From: Thermoplasmata archaeon
GTDB taxonomy: Archaea > Thermoplasmatota > Thermoplasmata > Thermoplasmatales > Thermoplasmataceae
NCBI GenBank assembly: GCA_021822985.1
Contig: JAKAPZ010000010.1
Coordinates: 1 to 36,574, forward strand
DNA length: 36,574 nucleotides
Direction: 5' to 3'
How positions within the stretch are numbered: the first letter of the stretch is position 1; every line of letters starts with the position of its first letter. Below the pieces are notes generated by a model. The model was not told where the DNA came from. It saw only the letters and a program-made list of their open reading frames with translations, and did not search any database. The position numbers and the translations under genes are program-made. Of this stretch, positions 9,005-36,574 are shown one piece after another.

Positions 9005-10702
9005 TCATTTATGCGTGTCAAGGTACCATTTTTTTAATTCTGTTTTAAGGACTTTTCCAAGCGGATTCTTTGGGAGATGATCAGAAATAATTATGTCACT
9101 GGGTACTTTTAAAATATACATATTATTCCTGCAATATTCAAGAATCTCCTCTTTGCTCAAAGTTTTATTGTTCCTGACTTCAACAAATGCCACAACGGAT
9201 TCACCAGTTATGGAATCTGGTACTCCTATGACGGCACAATTCTCGACCTTGGGGTTTGATCTTATTATCTTCTCGATCTCCAGTGGATATACCCCTACTC
9301 CCTTGACCTTTATCATATCTTTTTTTCTGCCCATTATATAGATATACCCATTTTCATCCACCCTGCCTAAATCCCCCGTATGAAGCCACCCATCTTTAGC
9401 GACCAGCTGCTTTGAAGCATTGTTCAGAAATCCTTCTATGACCTGGGGGCCCTTCACAAGCAATTCTCCTGTTTCACCAAGTGGCATATCGACAGTTCCT
9501 GTTTTGAGATCTACAATTCTGACAGATGTATTTGGAAGGGGAAGACCGACGGAATTGGGTCGTTCCATATCCTCATTATCAGGGCACATAGCAACTACTG
9601 GAGAGGCTTCAGTGAGACCATATCCCTGGCAGAGTTTGATTCCAAATCTGTTTACAAAATTTGCACGCAGGGATGCAGGCAATGTGGAAGATGTACTGAT
9701 TATTCTTACTGTCCCGCGCGGGGTTATTTTTTTGATGTGGTAGTCTTCCACCATTCCATTGAATTTTGAAGGCAGATCCGGATAGAATACATTCGGATAT
9801 TTTTCAATGATCTTTACTATCTGTTCAAGATCAAGACGATCTGAAAGTATTTGTATTTTACCCCCTATCAGAAGAGGCAAAAGAATGTTCACTGTGATTC
9901 CAAAAACGTGAAAAAAAGGGGGTGTTGCGATGAATAAAATATCGTTCCTGTCTATATTCTTTGTCCATTCATTCAACTCGTAAACATTAGCTATGAGGTT
10001 ATAGTGTGAAATCAGGGCAGGTTTTGGTTCACCTGTTATTCCACCGGTGAAATGAATCGTAGCAATATCCAATTTTGGATCTATCAATTCTTCTTTTACA
10101 GGGGGAAGATTTTTCCCAACATCGATCATGAATAAAATATTTTTATCCCTTGGAAGTTCTTCCTGGAATAATACATTCTTAAGACCCGGAATTGAACTTA
10201 AGGGGTTTTTAATATGGATTTCAGTTCTGACAACAATAATTTTTTCAAGTGTAGTGGGGAATAAAGCGATCACCTTTGTGATGAACTCTGCAAAGACGAA
10301 TATGATTTTTGACTTCGCAACTTCAATGGAATTTTTTATTTCATTGAATGTATACATAGGATTGATGTTTATTATGGTCACACCAATTTTGGCTGAAGCA
10401 AGCAATATATAGATATACTGAGGACAGTTGGGAAGCAATACAACAATACGATCCCCTTTCTTCAATCCCATGGAAGAGAGGCCGGATGCTATTCTTTCGA
10501 CTTCATTGTTCAGCTCGGAATATGTCTTCACCATATTCTCAAATCCTATGGCCTCTCTTGAACCGTATTTTTTTACCGATTCCTTAAACATCTGGTAGAT
10601 TGAAATTTCAGGAATATCTATTTTTCTTCTTGCATGTGCAGGATAGTTTTTTTCCCATAAAATTTCCAACCTCTCCTGTGTGTTATTATACATGCAGTTC
10701 AC
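9005..10702 (-). CDS. AMP-dependent acyl-CoA synthetase/ligase, paralogue of 5514-7205
   Basis: Near-identical N-terminus (YPAHARRKIDIPEISIYQMFKESVKKYGSREAI), HFTGGITGEPKPALISHYN, GYGLTEASPV, NPLGKVLKTEL. Confidence 0.9.
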   Translation of the reverse strand: MNCMYNNTQERLEILWEKNYPAHARRKIDIPEISIYQMFKESVKKYGSREAIGFENMVKTYSELNNEVERIASGLSSMGLKKGDRIVVLLPNCPQYIYILLASAKIGVTIININPMYTFNEIKNSIEVAKSKIIFVFAEFITKVIALFPTTLEKIIVVRTEIHIKNPLSSIPGLKNVLFQEELPRDKNILFMIDVGKNLPPVKEELIDPKLDIATIHFTGGITGEPKPALISHYNLIANVYELNEWTKNIDRNDILFIATPPFFHVFGITVNILLPLLIGGKIQILSDRLDLEQIVKIIEKYPNVFYPDLPSKFNGMVEDYHIKKITPRGTVRIISTSSTLPASLRANFVNRFGIKLCQGYGLTEASPVVAMCPDNEDMERPNSVGLPLPNTSVRIVDLKTGTVDMPLGETGELLVKGPQVIEGFLNNASKQLVAKDGWLHTGDLGRVDENGYIYIMGRKKDMIKVKGVGVYPLEIEKIIRSNPKVENCAVIGVPDSITGESVVAFVEVRNNKTLSKEEILEYCRNNMYILKVPSDIIISDHLPKNPLGKVLKTELKKWYLDTHK

Positions 10703-11065: not shown

Positions 11066-11395
11066 TTATAATTCCTTATAAACATCTATGAATTTGAGAT
11101 ACCAGTTCCGGAATTGGTCTTCCGTGCAGAAATGCAATTCCAATGGCGCATCAAATTCCCCGTACACTTTCAGAATTATTTGATCTTTCATACTTTGATC
11201 TTTTAATATTATAAGTATGTCAATATCACTATTGGCATTCCAGTCTCCTCTTGCGGTAGATCCAAAATGAATTATCTTTGCCTGATCATCAAATTTTTTC
11301 ACCATGTTTCGAACTGCAATTGCAATCTCTTTTGAATTTCGAAGCTTTTCAGAACGCATTTTAGCATATTCAATCAATATATCTGTCATACACAT
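11066..11395 (-). CDS. minimal nucleotidyltransferase (MNT) of HEPN/MNT module
   Basis: HFGSTARGDWNANSDIDILI (GSxxxGD...SDIDIL) motif; overlaps upstream HEPN ORF by 26 nt. Confidence 0.88.
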   Translation of the reverse strand: MCMTDILIEYAKMRSEKLRNSKEIAIAVRNMVKKFDDQAKIIHFGSTARGDWNANSDIDILIILKDQSMKDQIILKVYGEFDAPLELHFCTEDQFRNWYLKFIDVYKEL

Positions 11396-29059: not shown

Positions 29060-32000
29060 TTACCTCCTCTTTCTCATGACAACCAATGCAGACCCAATTA
29101 CTACTACCGCTACCACTACTCCGATTATGCCATATAGCTCCATGCCGGATATACCCGAAGGTGAAGACGGTTTTTTGATGGGAGTGAATGTAACAGCTTT
29201 TGATACACCGTTTCCATTAACGGATATTGAACCTGATGATGCCGAGATATTATATCCTGTTACGTTACCGAAAGTGTAAGAATAGGTTCCATTCATCAGC
29301 GTGAATGAATACGAAGTCCCGGTGATTGCTCCGGATTTCATGCCGTTGCTTAGATTCACATACCATGTGGTTCCTGATGGAAGACCTGATTCCGTGAATG
29401 TCACCGTGTATTTGACCGGAGAGAATGTGACTGTTTTTCCGGTATTCTGTCCACTTACGAGTATTGAACCCGATTGTGATGACACTGTATACCCGGAGAC
29501 TTTACCTATTGTGAATGAGTACGATCCATTTATTAAATCAAATACATAGGATGATCCTGATATTGCACCTGAGTGTGAAACATAACCTGTAGATGTGTTT
29601 GTCAAATTCACATACCATGATGATCCAGAAGGTAACCCCGTTTCCGTGAATGTTGCTGTGTATTTCACAGGAGTGAAAGTTATATTCAATTCTTTATTAA
29701 AACCGTTTATTGTAACTGATCCTGTTGCATTTACGGATGTTATATAATCAGAAAGCTTTGTTACATTGTATGAGTAGGTTCCATTCATTTCGTTGAAGAC
29801 TATTGTTGATGTTGAGGACGATTCTGTTGCACCATTCAGTGTTACATTCCATGATGATCCAGATGGTAACCCTTTTTCTGTAAATGTTACTGAATATGTG
29901 TATTGTGAAAATGTTACCTGAATTAAAGATGGTGTTCCAGCTGATTCATTGAATGATCCCCCATTTGCATGATATAGCTTGTTGCTTGTTGATATGACAT
30001 ATGTGTATGTTCCCTTAATCAAATTGAATGAAAGTGAATTTGATGTCCCTGATTCTGTGAATATATGACCTGTTGAGTTTGTGATGTTAACATACCATGT
30101 GGTTCCTGATGGGAGATTGGATTCTGAGAATGTTACCGGATATCCAGTAGGAATAATACTGACTGTTCCAGATTTATAATTTACAACGTAAACGTTCCAG
30201 TTGGATGAATCGAATGCTGCTACAAGAGGTTCTGAACCAACGGATATTGTACTGATGATAGAATTTGTTGTGCCGTTGATCACGGAGACGTTGTTGGAAC
30301 AATCATTGGCTACGTAAACGTATCCGTTAAATGGATCGAATGCTGTCCCATCAGGGTTTGAACCGGCTGCTATTGTATCTATGACGGAATTTGTTGTGCC
30401 TTTGATCACGGAGACAGTGTTGGAACCAGAATCAGCAACGTAAATGTACCCGTTGGATGAATCAAATGCTGCTGCATCAGGGTATGAACCAACGGTTATT
30501 GTATCTGTGACGGAATTGTTTACACCGTTGATCACGGAGACGTTGTTGGAACCAGGATTGGTAACGTAAACGTACCCGTTAAATGGATCGAATGCTGCTG
30601 CATCGGGAATTGAACCGACAGATATTGTCTTGATGATGGAATTGTCTACACCGTTGATCACAGATACAGTATTAGAACCAAGATTGGTAACGTAAACGTA
30701 TCCGTTGGATGAATCGAATGCTGCCCCATCAGGGTTTGAACCGGCTGCTATTGTATCTATGACGGAATTGTTTACACCGTTGATCACGGAGATGCTGTTG
30801 GAATTATAATTGGCAACGTAAACGTATCCGTTGGATGAATCGAATGCTATTGCATCAGGGATTAAACCGACTGTTATTGTATCTATGACAGAATTTGTTG
30901 TGCCATTGATCACAGAGACCGCATTGGAGCCAGGACTGGTAACGTAAACGTACCCGTTGGATGAATCGAATGCTGCTGCATCAGGGATTAAACCGACCGT
31001 TATTGTATCTATGACGGAATTGTTTACACCGTTGATCACGGAGACGTTGTTGGAACCAGAATCGGCAACGTAAACGTATCCGTTGGATGGATCGAATGCT
31101 GCTCCTTCAGGTGTTGACCCAACAGATATTGTCTTGATGACAGAATTTGTTGTACCATTGATCACAGAGATGCTATTGGAACAACCATTGGAAACGTAAA
31201 CGTACGCATTGGATGAATCGAATGCTGCTGAATCAGGGTTTGAACCAACGGTTATTGTATCTGTGACAGAATTTGTTGCGCCATTGATCACAGAGATGCC
31301 GTTGGAATTATAATCAGCAACATAAACGTACCCGTTGGATGGATCGAATGCTGTTCCATCAGGTCCTGGGCCAACGGATATTGTCTTGATGACGGAATTG
31401 TTTACACCGTTGATCACGGAGACCGCATTGGAACCATAATTAGCAACGTAAACGTATCCGTTGGATGGATCGAATGCTGCCCCATCAGGGATTGAACCGA
31501 CAGATATTGTCTTGATGATGGAATTGTTTACACCGTTGATCACAGAGACAGCATTGGAACCATAATCAGCAACATAAACGTATCCGTTGGATGAATCGAA
31601 TGCTACTGCATCAGGGTTTGAACCAACGGTTATTGTATCTACGACAGAATTGGTTGTGCCATTGATCACGGATACTATGTTTGAGCCAGAATCGGCAACA
31701 TAAACGTATCCGTTGGATGAATCGAATGCTGCTGTATTAGGGTTTGAACCAACGGATATTTTCTCGATGACAGAATTTGTTGTTCCGTTGATCACGGAGA
31801 TGTTGTTGGATCCATAATCGGCAGCATAAAGATACCTGTTGGATGAATCGAATGCCACAGCTTCTGGAGAGAGCTCATTGGTACTGTTTATAAAATTTCC
31901 CGGTATCAATGTGTTGTTCAATAAAACAAGTGTGTATTTTACATAACCGGCACCCGTATTATTCTGATGGGAAGATGGGACGAAACTGATTACTGAGTTG

Positions 32001-32275: not shown

Positions 32276-32692
32276 CTACGCAATATTGCAGTTCTTCCTG
32301 ACTTGGTCAGATAATACAAGACCAAAGGTGTAGAGATCCGTATATCTGGAGAGAATTACTATGCCTATGAGATGACAAGCAGATGGAACAGGGAGAAGAA
32401 GTATGGGGCCCGTCTCATTGGAGATCCCTAGGTGAATTTTTAGAAGTGAGAAATAGACAAGAAAATTTAAAAAAATAATAGATAATGTGCATATAATTGT
32501 AACGATGCATACATCCTGAAAAATAGTATACCTTATTGGCACATGTTTATGATTGTTCATCAACTTCGTTGCTTCTTTTTTAGCCCGGATATTGCCTCCA
32601 TCGAAGAGAAAAGCCAGCATAACCAAATTTACCGTTTGAAATGAACCTGATAAAACAAAATTTTCAGCAAACGGAATGAAATTAAATGTCAA
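32276..32692 (-). CDS. hypothetical membrane protein
   Basis: Several hydrophobic segments (VCIVTIICTLSIIFLNFLVYFSLL; SACHLIGIVILS). Confidence 0.5.
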   Translation of the reverse strand: MTFNFIPFAENFVLSGSFQTVNLVMLAFLFDGGNIRAKKEATKLMNNHKHVPIRYTIFQDVCIVTIICTLSIIFLNFLVYFSLLKIHLGISNETGPILLLPVPSACHLIGIVILSRYTDLYTFGLVLSDQVRKNCNIA

Positions 32693-33100: not shown

Positions 33101-33382
33101 ATGAGCCGTGAGACTTACAAAACAAAATTCACTAAAACAAGTTCAAAGGGTCAAATAGTGATCCCTTCAAGCATACGTAAAAAACTCAACATTAGTGATG
33201 GAAGCATTCTAGCGGTCACATTTAAGGACGACTTGATTATTTTAAAGAAAGTCAGCTCAAAGATATCTCCCGCAGATATGAAAACAATAAAACTCATTGA
33301 GGAAGCATGGAAAGATATTGATAATGGAAATTACAAGACAAGAACCAAAGATGATTTCCTCAGAGAGCTTGAAGAATGGTAA
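33101..33382 (+). CDS. AbrB/SpoVT-family antitoxin
   Basis: KFTKTSSKGQIVIPSSIRKKLNISDGSILAVTFKDDLIILKKV swapped-hairpin AbrB signature. Confidence 0.9.
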   Translation: MSRETYKTKFTKTSSKGQIVIPSSIRKKLNISDGSILAVTFKDDLIILKKVSSKISPADMKTIKLIEEAWKDIDNGNYKTRTKDDFLRELEEW

Positions 33383-33636
33383 TTCATATAGATAAAATAG
33401 TCTACACTTCTAAATTTGAACAGGAAGTAAAGAAAGTGGTGGATAAGAAAGTGAAAGAGAGGTTAGGAAAGAGCATTAAGAAATTAATAGAAACCCCTGA
33501 AATTGGGAAACCTCTAAGATATGCCCTAAAGGGGGAAAGAACCATTAGAATTCCACCGTTTAGATTAATCTATGCAATAAATGGTAATGACCTGATTTTG
33601 TTGCGATTTGAGCATAGAGGAGATGTATATGACTGA
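33376..33636 (+). CDS. RelE/ParE-family toxin
   Basis: VYTSKFEQEVKKVVDKKVKERLGKSIKKLIETPEIGKPLRYALKGERTIRIPPFRLIYAINGNDLILLRFEHRGDVY; overlaps antitoxin gene. Confidence 0.88.
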   Translation: MVIHIDKIVYTSKFEQEVKKVVDKKVKERLGKSIKKLIETPEIGKPLRYALKGERTIRIPPFRLIYAINGNDLILLRFEHRGDVYD

Positions 33637-33740
33637 TTTATTTTTCTCTGCTATTTTTGATAATAATTTTCGCTACATCGTGAATAATCATAGTCGTGAC
33701 ATCATTTTTGACTATTTCTCATAAACACATTGAAGAGTGC

Positions 33741-33756
33741 GGTTAACATGTTAACC
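33741..33756. repeat. 16-bp perfect palindrome GGTTAACATGTTAACC
   Basis: Equals its own reverse complement. Confidence 0.85.
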
Positions 33757-34015
33757 CAGTGGCGGCCATAGCCATAATAGTATAATATACAGCCGGGAAC
33801 ATGGAATTGCTATCAGAAGTTGCTTTCAACGACTTGTTTCTGTTGTCCATAATATCATTGTGCTTACCCCGTTCTTCAGTAATTATAAATTTGATCAAAA
33901 TTTGGAACAGCTACAGGAAAACATGAGATGACGGATATTCAATAGACTAAATTCTATTGTCCTTATTCATGACTAATTGCTTAGAGCGAACTCAATCGAC
34001 CAAAAGTGCATTGCC

Positions 34016-34045
34016 AATGTTGTATAACATAGGTTATACAACATT
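34016..34045. repeat. perfect inverted repeat AATGTTGTATAAC-ATAG-GTTATACAACATT
   Basis: 13-bp perfect arms, 4-nt spacer, in non-coding DNA. Confidence 0.9.
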
Positions 34046-34568
34046 AGAATATCCTTAAATGGAAAAATCGGGATGGTTGTTGCTAAAAGGGGCCATTCTC
34101 GTGCCATGGTTTATCTATTATTCACATTGAGGGCATTATATTCAATTTAAAAAGACTTTTGGGTATAATTTATCATTGAGATGTCGAAGGGGGCCTTAAA
34201 TCTTTTTTAAAATTGATATTAATAAAAATATTTTTGAGTAAGTTTGTAAAATGACGTACCTCAAATTGAGGATTCTGAAGACAAGGTTTCAAGACGAATA
34301 ATACTTTTCTTATATCTAGGTTCATTGTCAATATTATCTATTTATTTTACATTCTATAACATCCTATATGCAGATTTATTGGAATTGAAACCAATGGAAA
34401 AAAATTAGTTATAATGAATATTCCTTATATGAGTAGTTGTTATAAATCTGATACATATACAATAGATATAATATCTCTATTAATAGCTGAAAAATATAGT
34501 TTATAACAATTCTAATTTATTGATAACCATTTTACATTTTCCATCCTTGATCACTCCATGTTCCGAAG

Positions 34569-35184
34569 TGTTTCACATATGTTGATTTCCTATTTCCCCT
34601 TGTGTTTCATCAGTGTTCCATTACTATTTCGGGTGTTCCACCGGAACAGTTTTTTAATTTTTTGTTTTCACTTGTGGAACACGGTATAGAGCCATTAATT
34701 AATGTTTTTACAATCTTACAGATTTAATTATTTTTCACATAGATTGTTTCAATCTGTTTCACTGTCTCATCGCTCTATTTATCCATATCGATAATTGATT
34801 ATGCATTTCCTTAGGACTTGCCTGATAAAAGACACTACAGTAGCACTGCTACTGGTACATGGACACTGCGCCAGTTACAGTACCAAATGTGTACCATTTT
34901 TGTACCACTGTACCTCACTGTACCAGTTACGTTTTCACTGTACCGCACTGTTTCGCCATAGTGTTTTGGTACATAGTTTTACGGCTTCTGCGGTTGGTGT
35001 ACCACACTGTACCTGTTACTGTTTCACTGTTTCAGGGGTGTTTCAGGTTGAAACACTAGAAGGTGATATACATGGGGGCTAAAAAAGGCGAAAATTTAGG
35101 GGATCGTATTTGCAGAAACTGCAAACTAGATCAAATCATTTCATGTTTTTGGATGTTTCATGTTGGTAGTGTTTCACTGTTTCA
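34569..35184. repeat. dense array of degenerate heptamers TGTTTCA / TGTTCCA / TGTACCA
   Basis: About 20 exact copies and about 7 one-mismatch copies counted by eye, mostly + orientation, adjacent to CRISPR array. Confidence 0.85.
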
Positions 35185-35190
35185 TCATAT

Positions 35191-36545
35191 GCTTCAATAG
35201 AGCCGTGATTTTTCAACCACGGAAACTTTAAAATCTTATCATCATAATTTTTGAGATTACTCTCGCTTCAATAGAGCCGTGATTTTTCAACCACGGTAAC
35301 TTTGTCGCAGATATGATTTTCGTGTGCCTCAAAATTGCTTCAATAGAGCCGTGATTTTTCAACCACGGAAACTTTCAAGCCTGTCTTTCTGTTTTATAAA
35401 ATATGGCACGCTTCAATAGAGCCGTGATTTTTCAACCACGGAAACTTTTGATCGTGTACATGAAAAAAGGTCTTACTGGATCGCTTCAATAGAGCCGTGA
35501 TTTTTCAACCACGGAAACTTGAACTCAATTTCGATCATCTGATCTATTGGCCTGCCGCTTCAATAGAGCCGTGATTTTTCAACCACGGAAACCCGGTTGC
35601 AACACCAACAAGCCAGACACCAAATGCTCGCTTCAATAGAGCCGTGATTTTTCAACCACGGAAACCCAATATCTCCTTCCAGCTGATGAATGGAACATAT
35701 TATTGGCTTCAATAGAGCCGTGATTTTTCAACCACGGAAACTGGGAAACCCCAGCCACAATGCACAAGTAACAGAGAGCTTCAATAGAGCCGTGATTTTT
35801 CAACCACGGAAACTCCGAGTTTGAGCCAACGTGAACTTTATATACACCTGCTTCAATAGAGCCGTGATTTTTCAACCACGGAAACGTTGTTAAGGGGGTT
35901 TGGGATGTTAGTCGCCCAATATTGCTTCAATAGAGCCGTGATTTTTCAACCACGGAAACTCACTATACGGTAAAATGGGGCAACGTGTTAAATCTTTGCT
36001 TCAATAGAGCCGTGATTTTTCAACCACGGAAACTTTAACTGCGTGCTTGTCGGCACACTGCTCTGAACAGCTTCAATAGAGCCGTGATTTTTCAACCACG
36101 GAAACCTGCCTGAATGTCGTAGTCGTTATAGATTAAGGCTCTCGGCTTCAATAGAGCCGTGATTTTTCAACCACGGAAACCCCCCAATCCCTGCTGTCCT
36201 GCCGGTGTTGTCAAAGTGCTTCAATAGAGCCGTGATTTTTCAACCACGGAAACATTTGTTATAGAGGTTAATTTTGTCGTATATTGTGGGGCTTCAATAG
36301 AGCCGTGATTTTTCAACCACGGAAACTCGTTGACATCTTATAGGTATTTCGTGATATCCTATGCTTCAATAGAGCCGTGATTTTTCAACCACGGAAACCA
36401 TGTATAAATAAGAGTATTATTTTCATAAGCAACATAGCTTCAATAGAGCCGTGATTTTTCAACCACGGAAACCTTCAACCCTCTCCCACTACTTCCCCAT
36501 TTCCCTTAAGCTTCAATAGAGCCGTGATTTTTCAACCACGGAAAC
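35191..36545 (-). CRISPR. CRISPR array, 19 repeats (36 nt) and 18 complete spacers (36-40 nt), continuing past the window; inferred crRNA strand is minus
   Basis: Repeat GCTTCAATAGAGCCGTGATTTTTCAACCACGGAAAC with unit starts 35191, 35265, 35337, 35410, 35483, 35557, 35630, 35706, 35778, 35850, 35924, 35998, 36070, 36145, 36218, 36291, 36363, 36437, 36510; internal CCGTG/CACGG stem. Confidence 0.98.
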
Positions 36546-36574
36546 TGGAAAAATTTGAAGATAGAGGAAACAGA

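Follow-up and report, generated by a model that had tools for sequence, protein, structure and literature searches.

CRISPR trailer ends in Thermoplasmatales carry heptamer tracts whose word differs between species: candidate arrays of protein-binding sites

In Thermoplasmatales, tracts of repeated heptamers are found repeatedly at the trailer ends of CRISPR loci, and the heptamer word is particular to the species. The tract analyzed here covers about 600 non-coding bases next to a CRISPR array in an acid-loving archaeon. It lies on contig C4, whose 36,574 bp are the whole stretch of DNA that was analyzed and are called the window below. The genome is 1.41 Mb in 119 contigs and is 81% complete, and the gene content of the window, with genes for an M1 peptidase and a formate-THF ligase, fits Thermoplasmatales. 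We give about even chances to the reading that the tract is an array of some 20-30 predicted binding sites for one sequence-specific protein, likely an HTH protein of a mobile element, and that it resembles an iteron or operator array. That a protein binds, and which one, as well as an origin from a mobile element and what the tract does today, are inferred.

The tract extends from about 34559 to 35184 and has no assigned strand. It contains 20 exact copies of TGTWYCA and about a dozen sites with one mismatch, direct as well as inverted. The exact copies are TGTTTCA (11, one reverse), TGTTCCA (three, one reverse) and TGTACCA (six, two reverse), with 16 of the 20 on the plus strand and four on the minus strand. 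These flavors are segregated along the tract (five runs, permutation p of about 8e-5). A TGTTCCA block at 34614-34681 contains the inverted pair TGTTCCACCGGAACA at 34634-34648. It is followed by a TGTACCA block at 34853-35014 that holds copies of a 33-nt internal repeat (34909-34941 and 34998-35030, 88% identical) and by a TGTTTCA block at 35020-35055 that ends in the inverted pair TGTTTCA-GGT-TGAAACA (35039-35055); none of these three blocks has an assigned strand. The last TGTTTCA block, at 35154-35184 on the plus strand, stops 6 nt short of the first CRISPR repeat, which begins at 35191. The initial annotation had correctly reported the heptamers and near matches, with every listed position right, and also the segregation, the prevailing orientation and the 6-nt gap. 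It had also proposed helical phasing of the sites. The best spacing period is indeed about 10 bp, but the resultant is only 0.45 for 20 sites after many periods were scanned, so helical phasing is weakly supported.

The density of the heptamers is far above chance, as had been claimed. The 20 exact copies in 34560-35184 (625 bp) compare with a mean of 0.74 and a maximum of 5 in 2000 dinucleotide-preserving shuffles of the tract. This comparison had been named beforehand as a refuting test, and the enrichment held. Because the heptamer words had been picked after seeing the sequence, a motif-free test was added. The commonest non-overlapping 7-mer, counted on both strands, occurs 11 times in the tract against a shuffle mean of 2.84 and a maximum of 5. 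The remainder of the window has a mean of 0.73 exact TGTWYCA per 660 bp, with a maximum of 4. Pairs of the word CACTGTWYC were found four times in the whole genome, always at this locus, and the order's other 116 genomes together hold one.

Where selection is absent, short words can be multiplied by slippage or by duplication of local DNA, and the tract would then be a neutral satellite. The 33-nt near-duplicates fit this, and so do the different words found among relatives. However, the spacings between copies are irregular and the copies occur in both orientations, Tandem Repeats Finder reported only very short arrays in the tract, control stretches of 0.8 Mb contained no tract, and the TGTNNCA frame recurs across genera. 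We consider a neutral satellite unlikely.

No open reading frame explains the tract. A 95-codon frame at 34795-35082 starts with TTG, and its translation simply reads out the repeats. Neither a coding frame nor a homologous gene for the tract was found anywhere in the order. A decayed coding gene, which the initial annotation had named as a refuting outcome, was therefore rejected, even though a fragment of an MFS pseudogene lies in the left flank (33724-33853; another piece of a decayed MFS transporter gene is at 32276-32692). The companion idea, that the tract is a CRISPR leader, was decided by the orientation of the array.

The array occupies 35191-36574 and, judged by homology, is transcribed on the minus strand. 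Its 36-nt repeat, which reads GCTTCAATAGAGCCGTGATTTTTCAACCACGGAAAC on the plus strand, is present 19 times before the contig end truncates the array. Within the order, arrays located close to cas4-cas1 fusion genes have homologous repeats. When the homologous arrays are placed in the orientation of the window, the cas2-side leader is on the right and degenerate repeats are on the left. Since the tract is on the left, it sits at the trailer (leader-distal) end, and the leader of the window array and any cas genes should lie past the contig end. In the window's genome, which is 81% complete, cas1 did not turn up, and the array is cut by the contig end. The framing of the tract as part of the leader was thus wrong: in homologous arrays the cas2/cas1-proximal end is the opposite one, and relatives show degenerate repeats on the side of the tract. 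To the left of the window tract itself, no degenerate CRISPR repeat stood above chance (best match 20 of 36). Taken together, a decayed gene or a leader is extremely improbable. By its sequence the array appears to be kin to type I-G, an assignment made with the gene list of Cuniculiplasma divulgatum S5 (PMC5155288). Very probably this organism, with its 57 spacers, Cas4/Cas1 fusion and Cas2 (PMC5155288), is the genome G048 of our set, which belongs to the same genus as the window genome and has the order cas4/1, cas2, leader, array.

Related genomes were searched for similar clusters, and tracts were found beside CRISPR loci, with other words than in the window. G048 has a non-coding tract of 17 TGTSACA located 1.2 kb beyond the trailer end of the homologous array, from which it is separated by the remnant of an NYN gene. 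G101, which we take to be Thermoplasma volcanium, has 22 copies of TGTTGCA/TGCAACA on the trailer side of a type III-associated array, and degenerate CRISPR repeats stand on either side of this tract. A second copy of this tract (L398) is also placed between degenerate repeats, near a cas1 remnant. The two G101 tracts (L368 526-1565 and L398 11187-11841) look as if they were inside the old end of an array. A stretch related to them is present in G041 (L367), again with a cas1 remnant. The trailer of the corresponding array in G098, a member of the same genus as G101, carries another word, GGGATAT/ATATCCC, and a third word, GTATTGT, occurs in G098 near a cas1 remnant, upstream of an HTH-like ORF. 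The position of the tract is therefore kept while the word changes between relatives: TGTWYCA in the window vs TGTSACA in the genome of the same genus, and TGTTGCA vs GGGATAT at the same position in the second genus. Similar C-terminal cas1 remnants were noted in three genomes (L367 2021-2410, L398 about 9990-10136, L387 about 9537-10003). Each sits in a region of glycosyltransferase and methyltransferase genes and has a heptamer tract on its 5' side.

The association with CRISPR was measured in several ways. A search with the triple GTGTNNCA pattern, made regardless of CRISPR, matched six loci in all 117 genomes of the order, and the backward control matched one. A CRISPR array, cas1 or the remnant of a cas1 gene lies no more than about 3 kb from four of these loci, although we estimate that cas1 neighborhoods make up roughly one percent of the order's DNA. 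The four include G008, where three sites precede a winged-helix gene. When 1.28 Mb of cas1/CRISPR neighborhoods, a sample picked around cas1, were scanned without a preset motif, seven non-coding tracts were found (the window, L115, L368, L398, L367, L108 and L387; scan row L107 is the same tract as L368), whereas 0.8 Mb from elsewhere yielded none. Three of the seven are related (two in G101, one in G041), so the number of independent events is smaller than seven. TGTNNCA ranked first among 3-2-2 gapped patterns for dense clusters. When the CTGTNNCA triple was searched in 400 genomes of the class, matches were about equal to the control, and no new CRISPR tract appeared. Forty-three arrays were checked, and four had a tract, in every case on the trailer side; this 4:0 split is weak evidence by itself, with a chance of 1 in 16. 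A literature search returned no description of such trailer-end heptamer tracts.

The tail of a CRISPR array is commonly regarded as inert. The location of the tract fits the idea of a tie to array termination, and the tract could be a trailer element that acts as a transcription end or insulator, either through a DNA-bound protein or as a hairpin-rich tail of the pre-crRNA. The consistent trailer side agrees with such a role, as does the lineage whose tract lies between degenerate repeats. In addition, each of the seven tracts gives a more stable fold than its shuffles, whichever strand is folded. An RNA role may exist, though the inverted sites alone would give such folding. A search of the window against Rfam gave no match. 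About nine tenths of the examined arrays have no tract, however, and that of C. divulgatum is 1.2 kb away from its array, past the NYN remnant. Overall, a trailer element seems rather unlikely.

Clusters of similar words were also found next to HTH genes. In G062 (L025), TTTACATGTAAA-N5-TGTAAA-N6-TGTAAA lies upstream of an HTH_23 gene. In G104 (L363), a TGTTGCA cluster lies around or upstream of an HTH_38-like gene, and in G008 (L366) and G019 (L365), three TGTGGCA precede a winged-helix gene. These clusters mix direct and inverted copies like the window tract, with fewer sites. Since they look like operators or iterons, we read the window tract as a large array of predicted half-sites. Within the HTH_23 gene region of L025 (1612-2602, with the upstream TTTACATGTAAA and direct TGTAAA copies), we also observed 43 bp of AT-rich DNA directly behind the gene that are 81% identical to window 34193-34235, to the left of the tract. 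The protein of L387 belongs to no significant family, and its HTH assignment was made by eye.

According to the binding-site reading, many copies of the protein would bind cooperatively to direct and inverted TGTWYCA half-sites, and in an intact element such binding would govern its replication or transcription. The contig contains no Rep or Par gene, and no Rep or HTH initiator is found among the larger ORFs of the window. The same holds for the four CRISPR-trailer tracts together: none has a gene for a replication initiator, a partition protein or an HTH protein next to it. As a partner gene is absent nearby, the window tract is probably either what is left of such an element or a site for a protein whose gene is located elsewhere. 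The findings suggest a fast-changing, putative landing site for protein that was perhaps left over from a mobile element. A kept position with words that change within a genus is not what would be expected of random decaying insertions, and this counts against a mobile-element remnant.

Searches for the element itself found no mobile element of the order with a matching word array. The window tract had no match in plasmid and phage records. Viral contigs contained no relatives of four HTH proteins or of one conserved stretch of a tract, and plasmids contained none of two of these proteins. Most matches of the triple CACTGTWYC in viral and genome contigs were tandem repeats within coding sequence, and no archaeal record was among the genome matches listed. 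By targeted search of 2.9 million viral contigs, non-coding clusters of TGTTTCA and TGTACCA were found. Three of these contigs (L193 5322-5591, L483 2526-2751, L564 2733-3112) have dense intergenic TGTACCA or TGTTTCA arrays in both orientations, which are possible phage iterons or regulatory arrays.

A different origin was considered for the words, namely the spacers of the arrays. This was rejected since spacers and tracts of the same arrays had no common match of at least 12 nt. The same result bears on a host-kept decoy, a tract that would copy the iterons or operators of invaders and titrate their initiator or regulator, giving an incompatibility-like defense beside CRISPR. The architecture equals that of the HTH-gene operators, the partner gene is absent, tracts recur at CRISPR trailers with species-specific words, and the region is rich in CRISPR, toxin-antitoxin and HEPN genes. 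Nevertheless, neither a matching mobile-element array for this order nor a spacer match of at least 12 nt was found; we regard a decoy as quite doubtful. A slightly broader proposal, that Thermoplasmatales CRISPR loci carry a dedicated trailer-end heptamer module with fast word turnover, which may serve as a decoy titrating the initiators or regulators of invaders in an incompatibility-type defense, is likewise rather improbable.

The surroundings of the tract were examined as well. Window 11370-33636 is rich in toxin-antitoxin and defense-like genes and has no synteny with relatives. It includes HEPN genes at 11370, 15575 and 27865 (the last paired with a nucleotidyltransferase), PIN/VapB-like pairs, an AAA_14/DUF4143 ATPase and a MazE-like/ParE pair at 33101-33636. 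A beta-propeller (NHL/YVTN) gene of 1015 residues contains a 126-bp tandem repeat in 13 copies (30184-31855). At 34016-34045 there is a perfect 13-bp inverted repeat, AATGTTGTATAAC-atag-GTTATACAACATT, and a 90% copy of it is located close to the end of a contig from a different family of the order (G002:C26:100-129). Between these and the tract, an AT-rich segment without an assigned strand (34200-34560, GC 0.21-0.25 in 200-bp windows) abuts the heptamers.

Such a segment beside repeated words could point to a chromosomal replication origin with Orc1/Cdc6 boxes, or to a parS-type centromere, since TGTTTCA and TGTTCCA equal the half-sites of bacterial parS. The AT-richness is not unusual, however. 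GC falls to 0.19 per 150 bp beside the tract, which is inside the range of the control stretches; GC dips are common enough in the order, and the segment is not diagnostic of an unwinding element. The orc1 genes of the window genome and of eleven congeneric genomes are elsewhere, on other contigs, with no such clusters in their 1.5-kb flanks, and an Orc1/Cdc6 origin was rejected. The parS candidate was also rejected, as the 16-bp palindrome TGTTTCACGTGAAACA is absent; the best match in the window has four mismatches, and none is inside the tract. An origin or centromere is very unlikely. The initial annotation had offered an iteron- or centromere-like array or a regulator array. Its iteron and regulator parts are the best supported, by the CRISPR-side tracts in relatives and the HTH-gene clusters, while a parS-type centromere is unsupported.

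Binding-site arrays that recur at trailers, in the same place but with another word in related archaea, would point either to control regions of mobile elements being captured repeatedly at CRISPR loci or to a role of the array tail that is new. Two of the tract-bearing genomes are apparently those of C. divulgatum S5 and T. volcanium, which are culturable, and this makes the question directly testable.

Among known systems, plasmid iteron arrays resemble the window tract in having many short, mostly co-oriented sites with some inverted copies, non-coding DNA, an AT-rich neighborhood and a species-specific word. The tract shares with iteron origins one short word repeated far above chance; it differs in having no adjacent rep gene, in its place at a chromosomal CRISPR trailer and in its irregular spacing. 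Type I-G CRISPR leaders of Thermoplasmatales also adjoin the array, but the tract is at the opposite end and has no leader motif, and in C. divulgatum S5 it is cas2 and the array that enclose the leader. The ParABS centromere parS shares the half-site words TGTTTCA and TGTTCCA, whereas its full palindrome is missing and the half-sites of the tract are many and spaced differently. The operator clusters of mobile-element HTH genes (G062 L025, G104 L363, G008 L366, G019 L365) have direct and inverted TGT-type words like the tract; they consist of a few sites before an HTH gene, whereas the window tract is larger, with 20 exact sites, and is accompanied by no HTH gene.
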